Of a stretch of DNA of 64,000 bases, positions 10,946 to 25,077 are shown piece after piece. The translations under genes were made by a program, and so were the position numbers. The notes below the pieces were generated by a model that saw nothing but the letters and a program-made list of their open reading frames with translations, did not search any database and was not told the DNA's origin. Numbering within the stretch: the stretch's first letter is position 1; each line of letters starts with the position of its first letter. Origin of the DNA: Rhizomonospora bruguierae (lineage in GTDB: Bacteria; Actinomycetota; Actinomycetes; Mycobacteriales; Micromonosporaceae); NCBI RefSeq assembly GCF_018397995.1, contig NZ_BBQH01000013.1:1-64000 (forward strand), written 5' to 3'.

Positions 10946-12283
10946 GGGATGCCTCCGCGTCGAGAGTCTTGTCTGCGTCGAACCTTAGGGCGCGGAGACG
11001 ACCGATGCGTCCCCACCCCCGTTCGAACGACTCGGGCCACCACGTGGTGTCGATGCTGCCAGGTCCGGGTACGGCGAGCGCAAGCCCTCCCGGCCGGGCG
11101 ACCCGGACTTGGCACGGCCCAAGCCGGGCGGCCAGCTCTGTCCCCACCCTGATGATTGGTTTTGTTTTCTCTTCAAAGAACTAACTCATCGTCTTCGTCG
11201 GTGCTGTGTGTTCTGTGGATGGGGCGCGTATCCGCAGCTGAGACGCCATATCCACAGGTGCGTTAGCTGTGGAGAACCCGGTGCGTAACCGGGGGTGTTC
11301 TCCACACGTCCACCGTTGTCCCCTGGTTGATGACCGTCGTCCACCGGTTATCCACCGGTTATCCCCGGGGTTTGTCCTCAGCTGTGGGTAACCGGGCGCA
11401 TGCCGATCGATGTAACGACCGGCTACTTTTCCCCAGATGGTTCCACAAGCCAGACACAGGCCGCATCAATCAGTGGATAAGTGCCGCCCTGTCCACACGC
11501 GTCCACAGGTGTTCCCCAGGGTTTCTCCACACCCTGTGAACATGCGCGGATCTCGTCCACCGAGTTCACAGGCTGTCGTACACAGGGCCTGTGGATGCCT
11601 GCGGACGGTGTGGACAACGGAGAAGGGCGCCAGATCCGGTGCGACGCCTTCGGACGGCTCATTGTCGGCTTTCTTGCACCGCTGCCTGGGTGTGCGCTGC
11701 CCATATCGGCGGGTGCCGCCGTCGCCGGCGACGTGGGAGCCTCCCGGGCGCAGGAGGCTTCGGGGACGGGAGCCGCAGGCCGGGGTGAGGCGGCGACGCC
11801 AGCGGGCAGGAGTGCTGGCGTCAGCGCGCTGGGCTCTGCTGCCGAGGAGGAAGCACCTCTATCCCACCCACTCCTCTCCCGGGCGGCGGGCTGGGTGGGA
11901 GATCTAGCTACGTATCTGTCCCTAAATCGGCGTATCTGTACCAAGCTCTGTGTCAATCTGCCGATCAAGCGGAGAAGGGAACAAGCGGAGAGAGGAGGTG
12001 GTGTTCTTCCCCTGCGGAAGCAGAGCAAAGCGGGTGGCACACCGAAGCTGCCCGGGCCGTCAACGGATGAGCTGCGTTGAACCGCGTGCCGGCGAACCGC
12101 GCCCCGGCCGAACCGGGCGCCGCCGAACCGCGCGCCGCGCCAACCGCAACCCGCGCTGCCCGCGCGCCGCGTCGACCGCGCTGTCCCGGCGCCGCGCCAA
12201 CCGGTGCTGCCCGCGCGCCGCGCCAACCCGCGCCGGAGCCGGGCCGCGCCTGCTCCCGTGAGCGGCGTCCCCGCGAGTGTGGA
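10946..12283. other. oriC: Replication origin (oriC), gene-free dnaA-dnaN spacer
   Basis: About 1.34 kb without a credible gene separates dnaN and dnaA. Between 11214 and 11617 there are at least 14 DnaA-box-like nonamers in both orientations, listed in the next entry. An AT-rich tract at 11151-11189, next to dnaN, is the best candidate for the unwinding element in otherwise GC-rich DNA. CGTATCTGT recurs at 11911 and 11931. From about 12060 to 12260 there is a C/G-rich imperfect repeat with no coding signature. Position and box density make this the chromosomal origin. Confidence 0.93.
11214..11617. promoter_or_regulatory. DnaA box cluster of oriC
   Basis: Boxes read directly include ATATCCACA (11248-11256), TTCTCCACA (11298-11306 and 11523-11531, and reversed at 11268-11276), TTATCCACC (11348-11356), TTATCCCCG (11359-11367), TTACCCACA reversed (11383-11391), TTATCCACT reversed (11472-11480), CTGTCCACA (11489-11497), GCGTCCACA (11499-11507), a reversed GCATCCACA (11590-11598) and a perfect reversed TTGTCCACA (11609-11617). 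The many near-consensus boxes and mixed orientation resemble origins of Streptomyces and relatives, which carry many weak boxes. Confidence 0.88.
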
Positions 12284-18750: not shown

Positions 18751-20160
18751 GTGCAGAACAGCGGTAGTCACGACGGCAGCGCCCCCGTTTCACGTGAAAC
18801 AGAGCGCGAAATCGGGCACGGAGTCGACCAGGAGCAGGTCACCGGTGCGTTCCCGCCGGTCAACCCACCGCCACGGCGTGAGGGTCGGATCTACGGCAGC
18901 GCGGCGGTGCCCGGTCCGGCGGAGCACGGCGTCGACCGTCAGGTTCCGTCGCCAAGGACCAGCAACGGTTACTCGGGTCGCGCCGAGGAGCCGACCAGCG
19001 GCGCTCCCGGGTACCGGGCGCCGGGCGGTCCACCGTCGCCGCACCGCATCCCTGCGGCGAACCCCGCGGGGAGTTACGCTACTTCCGGCGGTCCCGCCGA
19101 CCCGGCCCTACGCCGGCCGACGCCGTCCCCTCGGCCCCACGCCGCACCGGTACCGGCGCCGGCGGAACAGGTCGACGGCGGACGGCCCGCGCCAGCCCCC
19201 CGTTCCGACGCCCGAGCCGACACGCCCGCGGCGTCCACGAGACCTTTCGCCGAGGAAACCGTGACGGACGCGTACGTTTCACGTGAAACAGAGTCGCGTG
19301 AAGAGGATGATCCACCGTTGGCCATGGAAGCCATGCGCGCCGTACATATCCTGAACCCGAGTGGCGAGGTGACCATGCCTCGGCCCGCCCACGCGCGCAT
19401 CATCTGCGTGGCCAACCAGAAGGGTGGGGTCGGCAAGACGACCACCACGGTGAACCTGGCCGTGGCACTGGCCCTGCACGGAAATCGGGTGGTCGTCGTT
19501 GACCTCGACCCACAGGGCAACGCCTCCACCGGGCTCAACGTCCCGCACCACGCCGGCGTGCCCGACGTGTACGACTGCCTGATCGACAACACGCCGCTCG
19601 CCGAGGTGGCGCAGGCGGTCGAGGGCATCCCCAACCTGTGGTGCGTGCCCGCCACCATCGACCTCGCCGGCGCCGAAATCGAACTCGTCTCGGTCGTCGC
19701 TCGGGAGTCGCGGCTGGCCCGAGCCATCGCCGCCTACCCCGGCGCGTACGACTACGTGTTCATCGACTGCCCGCCTTCGCTCGGGCTCCTGACGGTGAAC
19801 GCGCTTGTCGCCGCCCAGGAGGTGCTCATCCCGATCCAGTGCGAGTACTACGCACTGGAGGGGCTGAACCAGCTCATCAGCAACATCAACCTGGTGAAGG
19901 CACACCTGAACCCGACCCTCGACGTCTCCACCATCCTGCTGACCATGTACGACCGGCGCACCCGCCTGGCCGACGCCGTCGAGCAGGACGTGCGGAACCA
20001 CTTCGGGGACAAGGTGCTGCAGGCGGTCATCCCGCGGAACGTCCGGGTTTCGGAGGCACCGAGCTATGGGCAGTCGGTGATGACCTACGATCCCGGTTCG
20101 CGGGGCGCCACGAGCTACTTCGAGGCGGCCCAGGAGATCGCGGAGCGCGCGGCGAAGTGA
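18751..20160 (+). CDS. parA: Chromosome partitioning ATPase ParA (Soj), extended N-terminus
   Basis: ParA is a Walker-type ATPase that binds DNA nonspecifically and with ParB-parS drives origin segregation. The deviant Walker A is KGGVGKTT (224-231), followed by [13 protein letters not shown] and [18 protein letters not shown]. The ATPase ends [15 protein letters not shown]. The first 200 residues are a low-complexity Pro/Ala-rich tail in which the peptide VSRET occurs twice, each encoded by a parS site. The start is uncertain. The GTG at 18751 follows GGGTAGGGAT; the frame is open to 18559, and a core-only start near 19324 is possible. parB follows after 46 bases. Confidence 0.95.
18787..18800. 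promoter_or_regulatory. parS: parS site 1 (inside parA)
   Basis: GTTTCACGTGAAAC is a perfect 14-bp palindrome identical to the bacterial ParB-binding consensus. It lies within the parA N-terminal coding sequence and encodes most of VSRET. Confidence 0.95.
19276..19289. promoter_or_regulatory. parS: parS site 2 (inside parA)
   Basis: A second perfect GTTTCACGTGAAAC lies inside parA, again in the frame that encodes VSRET. It is 489 bases, an exact multiple of three, from site 1. Confidence 0.95.
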
Positions 20161-20206: not shown

Positions 20207-21241
20207 ATGAAGAACCGTCCGAAGGGCGGCCTCGGGCGTGGGCTCGGTGCGCTCATTCCGACCGCGCCCCCGCCTGGAAGCGTGGCGACCGCCCCGCTGC
20301 CCGGCATCAACCCGGCCTATGGCGCCCCGGCCGACTCGGGCGCCACGGCACCGGTGCAGCCCGGTCCGTCGGCGGCCGCGGTCGGCGTGCCGTCGTACCC
20401 GGAACTGGCGCCGGTACCCGGGGCGCGGTTCGCGGAGATCCCCGTCGTCGCGATCGTCGCGAACCCGAAGCAGCCGCGGCAGATCTTTGACGAGGAGGCG
20501 ATGGCGGAGCTGAAGACCTCCATCGAGGAGGTCGGGCTGCTCCAGCCGATCGTCGTGCGAGAGCTCGGCGAGGACAAGTACGAGCTCGTGATGGGCGAGC
20601 GGCGCTGGCGGGCCTCCCAGGCGGTCGGCAGGGACACCATCCCGGCGATCATCCGGGACACCCGCAACGACGCGATGCTCCGGGACGCGCTGCTGGAGAA
20701 CATCCACCGCGCGAACCTGAACCCGCTCGAAGAGGCCGCCGCGTACCAGCAGCTGCTCGACGAGTTCGGCGCGACCCACGAGGAGCTTGCCCGCCGGATC
20801 GGGCGCAGCCGCCCGCAGATCTCGAACACCATCCGGCTGCTGAACCTGCCGCCGGTGGTTCAACGCCGGGTGGCGGCCGGCGTGCTGTCGGCCGGGCACG
20901 CCCGCGCACTCCTCGCCCTCGACGACACCAACGGGCAGGAGGAGCTCGCGACCCGGATCGTCGCGGAGGGGCTGTCGGTCCGGGCGACCGAGGAACTGGT
21001 CTCGCTGGCCATCTCGGAGGGCCCCACCAAGAAGGCCGCACCGAGGCGCCGCGCCAAGCCCCACTCGCCGGCCCTCGCCGATCTGGCCGACCGGCTCAGC
21101 GATCGCTTCGACACCCGTGTCAAGGTCGACATCGGCAGGGCCAAGGGGAAGATCACCATCGAGTTCGCCACGGTGGACGACCTGGAGCGGATTGTCGGCA
21201 TCATCGGGGTGGAGCGGGAGGACTCCCTCAGCGACGGCTAA
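20207..21241 (+). CDS. parB: Chromosome partitioning protein ParB (Spo0J)
   Basis: ParB binds parS and slides on DNA as a CTP-dependent clamp, loading SMC and partnering ParA. The 344-residue protein has the N-terminal ParA-interaction segment ([14 protein letters not shown]) and a Pro-rich linker. The CTP-binding domain holds [13 protein letters not shown]-like and GERRWRA (130-136) boxes, followed by [14 protein letters not shown]. The HTH is [20 protein letters not shown], and a C-terminal dimerisation domain ([11 protein letters not shown]) closes it. The gene ends just before a terminator and parS site 3. Confidence 0.97.
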
Positions 21242-21256
21242 CGACCCCGTCCCACT

Positions 21257-21290
21257 GAGCCCGCCGAGCGCCTGAACGCGCGGCGGGCTC
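21257..21290 (+). terminator. parB intrinsic terminator
   Basis: GAGCCCGCCG (21257-21266) and CGGCGGGCTC (21281-21290) form a perfect 10-bp stem followed directly by TTTGTTT, 15 bases after the parB stop. The T-run merges into parS site 3. Confidence 0.88.
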
Positions 21291-21293
21291 TTT

Positions 21294-21307
21294 GTTTCAC
21301 GTGAAAC
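21294..21307. promoter_or_regulatory. parS: parS site 3
   Basis: A perfect GTTTCACGTGAAAC lies immediately after the parB terminator, so close that the parS supplies part of the terminator T-run. Confidence 0.95.
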
Positions 21308-22544
21308 GGCAGGCCGCCGTGCCGGCGCCGCGACAGCCGACGTGGGCCCGCCGCTTCGCCGACGGTCTGGCGAACGGCGGTGCGCGGGTGAACGGGATTG
21401 CGGCCACGGCACCGACGGCAAAGAGGACGGTCCTGGCGAAGCCCGCCCGCCGCCCGCAGTCGGCCGGCGGCGCCCGTGAAATGTGCCGCCCATTCCAGGA
21501 GGGCGCAAGCGGGTGGGCGGCGCTCGAACGAGATGCGTCTGTCGCCCGTCGTCCTTCGTCGCCGCCCTCCAGCGCGCGCTCCGCTGCGCGGGGAACGACC
21601 CCGTCCCTCGCACCGCTCGCTTCTCGCGGGCCCGGCGCGGACGCCACCTCCGCGCCCGCAGGTCGGCCGGACGCGATGAGCAGCGAGACGAGCACCAGTT
21701 GCGCAACGGCGCGGTCGGCGGCGGTGAATGCTCACACCGAGGCGGCCGACCCCTCACCGCGACGCGGTCGAGCGCCGTCTCCGTATGGCGGCCACTTGCC
21801 GTGCCTGCGCTGCCTTGGGAGCGTCTGTCGCTCGTCGCCTGGGGGCGTCCGTCGCGCTGGATCGGCGGGGCCGACTCCAACCGGTCGGACCACTAGTCGC
21901 TACCTGACTCGGGCTCTAACCCGTCGCTCGGTCGGGCCCGCGTGGCCCCGAACCGCGAATGGCCGCCGCTCGGCGAACTCGGCGTGGACCGCGCCGAGCG
22001 CCGGCCGGTGTGCCGAGCAAGGGGGGCCACTCGTCAAGGCAGGACCGCGTGGCGCACCATGGCGTGCCCGGACGTCCAGGGTAGCCAGATGCGAGCAGAA
22101 GACGCTCGAAGGGCGACGAGAGCGTGGCACGGGATCGCCGCGCTCAGGCGGCGCTACGCACTGGCCGCCCACGCGCGCCGCGCTGCTGGTCGGCGGTGCC
22201 GCCAGCCCACGCTGAACGTTGCCGGGTACGCAGCGAACACCGGACGCTTCCGGCAGCGCAGGCGCGGCATGGTCTCGGCGCCCCCAAGCGGCGCTCGGCC
22301 CTAGCCGCCATGGAAACTCAGTACGGGCGTCGGCGTCGGGCCGCAGAGTGTCGCTCCCGGGCGACCCGGGTCGCAGAGTGGCACTCGGGCGCCGCCGGGG
22401 TAGCAAAGCGCCGAGGCCGATGCGGAGTGCAGTCCAGGGCGGAGTCTGTTCGAACGGAGCGGGGGCTGAGCGGAGCACGGACAGAGCCCGACGCCGGGGC
22501 GGACTCAGAGTCCGACGCGGGCGGAGTTGCCCGTGCGGGATCCT

Positions 22545-22609
22545 GCGCTCGCGGCCCTGTGCTCGTGGCCCTGTGCTCGTGGCCCTGTGCTCGTGGCCCT
22601 GTGCTCGCG
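22545..22609. repeat. 14-bp tandem repeat array A
   Basis: Three exact copies of GTGCTCGTGGCCCT (22559-22600) are flanked by a degenerate copy on the left (22545-22558) and a partial copy on the right (22601-22609). There are no spacers, so it is not a CRISPR array. Confidence 0.9.
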
Positions 22610-22716
22610 CTATCGCGGCAGGCACCGCCCGCACGAGATTTTGCCTGCGGAAGTCCTGCGGGGCGCTTGCCAAGGGCCGAGACGGTAGCCCGTAGACAGA
22701 GTCGCCGGAGGTCGTT

Positions 22717-22730
22717 GTTTCACGTGAAAC
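22717..22730. promoter_or_regulatory. parS: parS site 4
   Basis: A perfect GTTTCACGTGAAAC lies in non-coding DNA about 110 bases right of tandem array A. Confidence 0.95.
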
Positions 22731-23346
22731 CGGGGGTCGGTTCGGTGAAGCGGGGCGTCCTGCGGGGCCCCCAGGAACGCCGAGGTTACGAGCGACAGCG
22801 CTCGTGGCCGACTCGTGGAGTTGCGATCGCGGATGGGGCTTAGCTCTGGTCCGCGACGCAGCGCCTACGGGTAGCGGCCATGGGCAGGACTGAGGTGCCG
22901 CGCGCCGGCAGCGGACCGAGCGACACGGGTCGCGGCAAGAACGGCGGGCCGACCGTGGTGATCCGCAGAGGGCGGACGCCCGACGTCAGGCGGGGGCGCC
23001 GCTCCGACCGCCCCCCTGTACACCACCGCTACGGCTAAAACGCGCTTCCGCGTCCCCTCGACGGATCGCTACCCGCCTCGCAGTGGCGGCCCAATTCACG
23101 CCTGCCGTGCTGGCTAGGCTTCCGGCGGCCCGCGCCCGTAACGGCGCCATGGAGCAGGAGCGGCCCACTGCCTCGACCGCAGCACACGGCCTCTGCGTCC
23201 ACGCCAGGCGTCGCCTCAACGGGAGCCAAACTCTGGAGCCGGCGAGGCACCGGACCTGACCCGGGTTTCGGTCGACGGGGCCACCACTGCGACCCGAGCA
23301 GCGGCTCGACGGATTATCAAGGGGCCGTGGAGCACAAGCCTCTGTG

Positions 23347-23456
23347 GGAGCCAGGGGCCCGGAGCCAGGGGCCCGGAGCCAGGGGCCCGGAGCCAGGGCG
23401 TGGAGCCACGGGCGTCGAGCCACGGGCGTGGAGCCACGGGCGTCGAGCCACGGCGT
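23347..23456. repeat. 14-bp tandem repeat array B
   Basis: Eight head-to-tail units span the array: three of GGAGCCAGGGGCCC, then a 13-base transition unit, then four variants of (G/C)GAGCCACGGGCGT, the last of 13 bases. The period matches array A but the sequence differs. It lies about 200 bases left of parS site 5. Confidence 0.9.
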
Positions 23457-23667
23457 GGAGCACCGAACCTGGAACACGAACCCGTGGAGCGTGGAGCAGG
23501 CCGCGAGCACAATGCCGCCGACCCACAGGATCGCGGGGCCGCCGGCCCACAGAGTCGCCGATGGGAACCCCCGGCCGGCAAGCCGTCATCGTCCAGAAGC
23601 CGGGTACGGCATCCCGTCTTGAAGCGGACCCGCCAGCCGGCCCGTCGGCCGAGAACACCATCCCTTC

Positions 23668-23681
23668 GTTTCACGTGAAAC
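23668..23681. promoter_or_regulatory. parS: parS site 5
   Basis: A perfect GTTTCACGTGAAAC lies in non-coding DNA. It is the fifth exact site within 4.9 kb. Confidence 0.95.
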
Positions 23682-23896
23682 GGCGCCACCGGCGGTCTCG
23701 CGCCCCGGCTCCTGGAGCAGGCCGTGACATCGCCCGACTCCAGCCCGCCTTCCCGCCGGCTCGCCCGGTGGCAACAGACGGGGGCCGACAACGCCCACCC
23801 GCCGAGAAGAGCCGCCGACTCAACGGGTGCCGACGCCCCGCCGGGAGGCCGTGCCCAGAGCAGCACCGTAGCCCCGAACCGGGCCGCCCGACTCCG

Positions 23897-24032
23897 CCGT
23901 CCACAGGGGGATCGAACCGGCGGCGGCGACCACCTCCGCCATCCACAGGAGTTATCCACAGGCGGGCGGTAAAGACCGCATAACTGCGGGTCAGCGAGTT
24001 ATCCACCCTGTGGATGACGGGCCTGTGGACGG
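23897..24032. promoter_or_regulatory. DnaA-box cluster outside oriC
   Basis: Six box-like nonamers lie within 136 bases: CCGTCCACA (23897), CCATCCACA (23939), perfect TTATCCACA (23952-23960), TTATCCACC (23999), and reversed TCATCCACA (24009) and CCGTCCACA (24024). A small hairpin GCGGT-aaag-ACCGC sits at 23966-23979. The cluster is about 12 kb from oriC and immediately upstream of the HIT-like gene, which it might regulate. Confidence 0.6.
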
Positions 24033-24093
24033 TCCGGCGAGCCGGCCGATATGGGGAGCGACAGGGGGTACCGGGCTCGACTAGTGTCGGTCC

Positions 24094-25077
24094 GTGCCCG
24101 AGAACCCCCCGCTGCCTTCGTTCACGTCGTGGCCCTCGTTTCCGTTCGAGGGCCAGATGCGCGTCAAGCCGCTCGACCCGCCGGTCGCCGTCGAACCCGC
24201 GCGCAAGGGCGACGACGGCAGCGACTGTGTCTCCTGCAACACCCCGGACGAGGAGTACATCTGGGTCAGCGAGCGCTGGCGGGTCCGCGCCATGGACCGG
24301 CCCACCGGGCTGCCGATGGTGCTGATTCTCGAGTCCCGTTCGCACCTGGATCTGGGGGACCTGCCGAACCTGCTCGCCGCCGAACTGGGCGTCATGACGG
24401 TCCGGCTGGAGCGGGCGATCCGCTCGATCGACGGGGTCGCGCGGGTTCACGTGAACCGGTGGGGCGACGGCGCGGCGCACCTGCACCTGTGGTTCATGGC
24501 GCGGCCGTACGGGCGGCTCCAGTTGCGGGGCACGTTCCTCCCGCTGTGGGATGACATCCTGCCGCCGATTTCCGAATCGGTCTGGCGGGAGAACCTGGCG
24601 CTGATCGCCGCCTGGCTCGCCGAGTTCGGCGGGCGCCCACTGGCCGAGCCGCCCCGCATCGAGTGGAAGGCACCGTCGTCCTTCGGCGAGGCCCCGGCGG
24701 TGGATCTGGCGGCCGCGGAGCCGGCGCGGGAGGCCGAGCCCGCGCTGCCCCTGGAGGGTCCGGAGGAGTTGGAGCCGGGCACCGGTGAGGCGGCGGCCAA
24801 GGCTGCCGTTGCGCGGTCCGGGGCGGCGGCTGCGACCGGCTTCCTGCCGGCTCAGACCGGGAGGATGGAGGCTTCCGCTTCCGGCACTGCGGGAGCGGCG
24901 GCATCAGGCCAGCAGGTGGCGCCGGTACCGGGCGCGGCGAGCGAAGGGAAGTCCGACAGTGAAACGGTGGGCGACGACGCGCCGTCCGCCAACGTGGCAG
25001 CGGAAGGCGACGGGAGCGGGCGGGCCGGCGATGCCGCGCCGGAGCCGGTGAAGGCTCCCGAGACCGCTGGCGCCTGA
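24094..25077 (+). CDS. HIT-like protein with disordered tail, function unknown
   Basis: The protein has 327 aa with a GTG start. Residues 1-205 are a folded domain. Cys45-x2-Cys48 may be part of a metal site. AAHLHLWFMARP (128-139) resembles the HIT catalytic motif, with His129 and His131 present but Trp133 where the third His would be. WGDGAAH precedes it as in some HIT proteins. The rest is an Ala/Gly/Glu-rich tail. By position it corresponds to the uncharacterised gene beside parB in other actinobacteria. A degenerate parS (GGTTCACGTGAACC, 24444-24457) lies inside. The nucleotide-hydrolase assignment is tentative and the altered motif may mean no catalysis. Confidence 0.75.
   Translation: MPENPPLPSFTSWPSFPFEGQMRVKPLDPPVAVEPARKGDDGSDCVSCNTPDEEYIWVSERWRVRAMDRPTGLPMVLILESRSHLDLGDLPNLLAAELGVMTVRLERAIRSIDGVARVHVNRWGDGAAHLHLWFMARPYGRLQLRGTFLPLWDDILPPISESVWRENLALIAAWLAEFGGRPLAEPPRIEWKAPSSFGEAPAVDLAAAEPAREAEPALPLEGPEELEPGTGEAAAKAAVARSGAAAATGFLPAQTGRMEASASGTAGAAASGQQVAPVPGAASEGKSDSETVGDDAPSANVAAEGDGSGRAGDAAPEPVKAPETAGA
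24444..24457. promoter_or_regulatory. Degenerate parS-like palindrome in coding sequence
   Basis: GGTTCACGTGAACC matches parS at 12 of 14 positions and keeps perfect symmetry. It lies within the HIT-like gene. ParB binding is possible but probably weaker. Confidence 0.5.

Follow-up and report, generated by a model that had tools for sequence, protein, structure and literature searches.

Why do bacteria need several parS sites, and does the DNA between these sites matter? In ParABS systems, ParB loads at parS, clamps, slides and recruits SMC, and transcription units in its way would disturb loading and sliding or be silenced. The locus studied here comes from a 6.7-Mb genome of the Micromonosporaceae, which ParB places nearest to Micromonospora, Actinoplanes, Catellatospora, Dactylosporangium and Asanoa. 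The window, that is, the whole stretch of DNA analysed (64,000 nucleotides, to which all positions below refer), holds a long gene-free block directly behind parB, for which the original prediction offered two readings: a centromere-like loading platform or a decayed insertion. Our findings make the centromere reading the better of the two. Judging from sequence comparisons, the interval probably constitutes most of the ParABS centromere of this chromosome, close to the origin and kept free of genes, with a separate DnaA/parS site. What is new is a family-wide gene-free interval whose sequence turns over completely, together with a rigid DnaA/parS module.

The interval behind parB and its parS sites

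The block lies between parB and a conserved gene, and further parS sites are found in parA, the Pfam domain of which was also detected in the window.

18787–18800: parS in the parA reading frame, exact 14-mer GTTTCACGTGAAAC
19276–19289: parS in the parA reading frame, exact 14-mer GTTTCACGTGAAAC
20207–21241, + strand: parB, with Pfam ParB_N, HTH_ParB and ParB_C
21242–24093: gene-free interval from parB to the next gene, 2852 bp, without three-base periodicity and without matches in Pfam or Rfam
21294–21307: parS at the left border of the interval, exact 14-mer GTTTCACGTGAAAC
22717–22730: parS in the middle, exact 14-mer GTTTCACGTGAAAC
23668–23681: parS on the right, exact 14-mer GTTTCACGTGAAAC
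24094–25077, + strand: conserved gene bounding the interval, present in 97 of 101 family genomes

This is the longest non-coding interval within the window. The claim that no frame in it looks protein-coding was borne out for the whole of 21242–24093. Across the three codon phases, G+C content has a spread of 0.04–0.17 in the block, as against 0.3–0.6 in clearly coding windows nearby, and an Rfam search returned nothing at threshold (one sub-threshold match was disregarded). No Pfam family was matched by the three long ORFs tested in the block. Scanning the block for promoters and terminators gave no hits.

The exact parS 14-mer occurs five times in the genome, with no sixth copy, and all five copies lie at 18.8–23.7 kb of the window. 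Shuffled versions of the window contained a mean of 0.01 sites, counted with at most two mismatches to the 16-mer. The two exact sites originally reported, and the third at the left border, are thus real. The locus has the sequence features of a ParABS centromere: the consensus in multiple copies, a position adjoining parAB and near the presumed oriC (the DnaA-box cluster at 11.25–11.6 kb of the window), and parS sites that are kept in relatives amid changing sequence. Clusters of parS near the origin have reportedly been described for chromosomal ParABS systems, among others in Streptomyces coelicolor, and the present locus resembles them in consensus, in having several copies and in adjoining parAB and oriC. 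It is unlike them in that most sites here fall behind parB in one gene-free interval, up to 8 kb long, in which related species have entirely different sequence. For parS in Micromonosporaceae themselves, our literature search found only general remarks. The two sites inside parA each encode V-S-R-E-T in frame, within a long N-terminal extension, and most relatives carry parS at distances about equal to those of these two sites.

Retention and turnover of the interval in relatives

Relatives were compared over 27 loci from named genomes, about 38 whole genomes, three Catellatospora and Actinoplanes sandaracinus, which carried out the comparison between parB and the next gene that had been proposed for this locus. 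In about 70 Micromonosporaceae the interval measures between 222 bp and 8.3 kb and is mostly non-coding, with coding-like islands in a few relatives. It usually contains 1–12 exact parS sites, and few intervals have none. In other actinobacterial families, an exact parS behind parB was found in only 1 of 39 loci, the sites lying mostly in and upstream of parA. This family-wide retention of a gene-free, parS-bearing interval supports the idea of a centromere-like platform.

The second original reading, a decayed insertion particular to one strain, fares poorly. In its favor, the filler contains one clear scrap of coding sequence (see below). However, the interval is present and gene-free in relatives across the family, and the three ORFs searched against Pfam contain no domain of a transposase or phage. 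Because relatives share the gene-free interval, an insertion is not needed to account for the block as a whole, and we regard this explanation as very improbable.

Interval length varies 35-fold over the family, and any length requirement would therefore be lineage-specific. Many draft contigs of Actinoplanes and relatives (L053, L056–L058, L060, L069–L072) stop within the interval, at 1–5 kb behind parB, as if this DNA resisted assembly. At the short end of the range, the gap in Asanoa hainanensis (L066) is 238 bp, and several one-mismatch parS sites lie 2–4 kb behind parB, past the next conserved gene.

The interiors of the gaps are largely unalignable between species, even within a genus. 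Between genomes with a parB region that is 93–96% identical, 16% of the interior aligns versus 91% of other low-periodicity windows, and at 87–90% identity the values are 3% and 88%, respectively; the control windows, selected for their low periodicity, may contain the edges of genes. The pattern is clearest in Catellatospora. C. paridis and C. methionotrophica share 92% identity in parB. They align over 100% of the 8 kb that precede the gap, and the gaps themselves (7.4 and 7.6 kb, with six parS each at similar places) share only parS-centred islands over about 7 kb until alignment resumes at the DnaA module. Global alignment of this pair gave no clear signal above shuffles for three of the four testable spacers, the fourth including the conserved right end. 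In all three Catellatospora species the gap is 7.0–7.6 kb long and carries 6 parS, similarly placed. When words were counted in 52 interiors with exact parS masked, the clearest signals were one-mismatch parS variants and DnaA boxes, and no other word was clearly prominent. The striking point is that length and parS persist while the letters change.

How could such an interval work? ParB would load at parS and then slide or spread over the flanking DNA, for which a gene-free landing zone would be well suited. The DNA between parS sites would serve as spacer and landing area, so that only its presence and the absence of genes would matter, and its letters would be free to change by substitution, by slippage that builds arrays and by insertion of scraps. 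Eukaryotic regional centromeres likewise conserve place and role on fast-changing DNA. We tentatively suggest that the Micromonosporaceae interval might be a bacterial analogue of these, selected for its presence and its spaced parS sites and not for sequence, with a closing DnaA/parS composite that ties initiation to segregation. It would differ from regional centromeres in that the loading sites here are short fixed sequences.

The rate of change itself may call for little explanation. In the Catellatospora pair, parB is only 71% identical at its fourfold-degenerate sites, so the turnover need not much exceed neutral drift; near-neutral drift together with indels may explain most of it, with no special process needed. 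This value also fits a different account, in which the parS sites are real and ordinary and the long spacer is unselected junk, into which insertions and gene scraps fall and where they decay since ParB-coated DNA tolerates no expressed genes and length brings no benefit. The filler of the interval bears on this account.

21668–21763, − strand: decayed scrap like a permease gene elsewhere in the same genome (UPF0014/FetB-like by eye), 75 bits, 75% identity
22040–22092, − strand: possible ppc (PEP carboxylase) scrap, 57 bits, 84%, barely above other intergenic DNA
22174–22208, + strand: possible smc scrap, 55 bits, 94%, barely above other intergenic DNA
22542–22607, + strand: 14-bp tandem array, unit CCTGTGCTCGTGGC, 4.7 copies, 96%
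23347–23461, + strand: 14-bp tandem array, unit GGAGCCACGGGCCC, about 8 copies, 92%

The scraps were found by searching the gap against its own genome, with donor gene names read by eye from translations. Controls with the reversed gap reached at most 42.8 bits. Other intergenic DNA reached 53.6 bits at most, via a dispersed repeat, and only the 75-bit match is therefore called firm. One 5-kb Actinoplanes gap likewise gave matches to its own genome at 64, 61 and 60 bits, although the donor sites are not all clearly coding. As far as such matches can tell, gene scraps do land in the interval, and at least one is part of the filler in the window. An origin of the scraps by short-patch illegitimate recombination remains a guess for which we found no supporting paper. 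A match of 21306–21353 to DNA of other genomes was set aside, as it had no strong counterpart in the genome of the window itself. Elsewhere in the window, part of the presumed oriC intergenic DNA (~11877–11949) resembles about nine other sites in the genome, that is, a dispersed repeat.

The two 14-bp arrays had been described as unrelated, a label that holds because the similarity of their units is at chance level (best 9/14, p ~0.17). No counterpart was found in relatives, where other species have arrays with different periods and units or none. Across the family loci, tandem arrays make up 5.9% of gap DNA versus 2.1% of upstream DNA and 0.04% of shuffles. The arrays in the window look like neutral slippage and, by this comparison, are incidental and outside any conserved mechanism.

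Own-genome coding scraps, arrays that differ per species and are enriched in the gap, and the coding-like islands of some relatives are all consistent with junk spacer DNA. Against this, the three Catellatospora keep both the length of their gaps and the number of their parS sites after complete sequence turnover. Bacteria, moreover, are expected to lose unselected DNA through deletion bias. We put the probability of an unselected spacer at somewhat below even. The family would offer naturally graded centromeres, from 0.2 to 8 kb in size, in which the protein partners stay the same and no genes intervene; the lack of genes means that spacer length, site number and site spacing could be altered without touching any.

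A rigid frame of DnaA boxes at the right end

The window contains 20 DnaA boxes (at most one mismatch) where 1.4 are expected, the majority on the oriC side. The DnaA-box group originally noted in the block is real, spanning 23897–24032 and including one perfect TTATCCACA; it sits at the right border before the next gene and not in the middle of the block.

23897–23905, + strand: extra DnaA-box-like site CCGTCCACA
23939–24017, + strand: conserved DnaA frame, with box 1 at 23939–23947, box 2 at 23952–23960 (13 bp on) and inverted box 3 at 24009–24017 (57 bp on)
23999–24007, + strand: extra DnaA box TTATCCACC
24024–24032, − strand: extra DnaA-box-like site CCGTCCACA

The frame recurs at the right end of the interval in relatives as TCCACA, a second box 13 bp on and an inverted TGTGGA, with box starts 56–57 bp apart. 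Of 66 gaps, 53 contain the 57-bp box pair and 43 the full triple, and the 13 gaps lacking the 57-bp frame include those of more distant genera. Shuffled gap ends yielded the pair at a rate of 0.0002, and across the 1.10 Mb of loci that were fetched, each of the 18 triples falls in the gap between parB and the next gene. In most genomes a parS starts 18–19 bp after the start of box 2. Of 151 genomes, 20 contain a stricter pattern of two boxes plus parS, which had 0 hits in a reversed-pattern control and lies in the same interval wherever coordinates were comparable. Some genomes have the box/parS module mirrored on both flanks of one parS. The frame in the window is without an embedded parS: the expected position, 23971–23984, reads AAAGACCGCATAAC, and the nearest parS is ~270 bp away. 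Asanoa and a few others likewise lack the embedded parS. The DnaA boxes of the original prediction thus turn out to form a module of their own with strict spacing.

We envisage this frame, usually built around parS, as a separate regulatory site where DnaA would meet ParB, which would let partition and initiation sense each other. The fixed spacing suggests, by analogy, a meeting place like those of Caulobacter and Vibrio. In Caulobacter crescentus, according to a passage in a review, binding of DnaA to the parS region sets off segregation even when DnaA is too scarce for replication (Mera et al. 2014, via review PMC6399470). As that passage has it, DnaA boxes lie within the centromere region there, and boxes also lie inside the parS region here, at offsets fixed in most of the family. 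Unlike Caulobacter, which is an unrelated lineage, the boxes here form a fixed frame of 13 + 57 bp with parS at a set offset. On chromosome II of Vibrio cholerae, ParB2 and the initiator compete for sites close to parS (PMC3688505). Its parS2 and 39-mer thus resemble the present module as a centromere site near an initiator-binding site, where ParB can affect initiator binding (PMC3688505); in contrast, the initiator there is RctB and not DnaA, and the site is inside the origin itself. The DnaA/parS module is a defined 79-bp site at which direct initiator–centromere cross-talk could be examined in Gram-positive bacteria.

Two other functions were considered for the frame. First, it could be a DnaA-titration or DnaA-switching site like datA and DARS of Escherichia coli, with parS merely modulating. 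Neither datA nor DARS is known to contain a parS. These are non-coding DnaA-binding regions that tune the initiator, according to a passage in PMC4585315, and they share with the frame their nature as non-coding DnaA-box clusters outside oriC; the box layout differs. The cluster here is conserved, non-coding, fixed in spacing and about 12.5 kb from the presumed oriC, and the versions without parS, in the window and in Asanoa, keep the exact frame. The small number of boxes, however, and the fixed offset of parS in most genomes speak against this function, which we consider rather unlikely. Second, the frame could serve chiefly as an operator through which the next gene responds to DnaA, with no relation to partition. 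It lies upstream of that gene wherever it was found and placed, and a TAGGGT-like hexamer, whose position a few bases before the start codon suggests a leaderless promoter of this gene, is kept in many relatives. Yet the distance from box 3 to the start codon ranges from about 75 to >300 bp, whereas spacing within the frame is constant within 1 bp, and parS lies inside the frame in most genomes. An operator is thus an unlikely main function, and a site for DnaA and ParB remains our preferred reading of the frame.

The HIT-like label originally given to the next gene found no confirmation, as its sequence had no match in Pfam, NCBIfam or PDB sequences and an AlphaFold model of its product was discarded (pLDDT 36). 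The product is ~80% identical over 200 aa in the family and has C-x2-C and H-x-H residues. Outside the family, two Kribbella loci (L077 and L079) carry a three-box DnaA cluster no more than ~100 bp from a parS upstream of parB.
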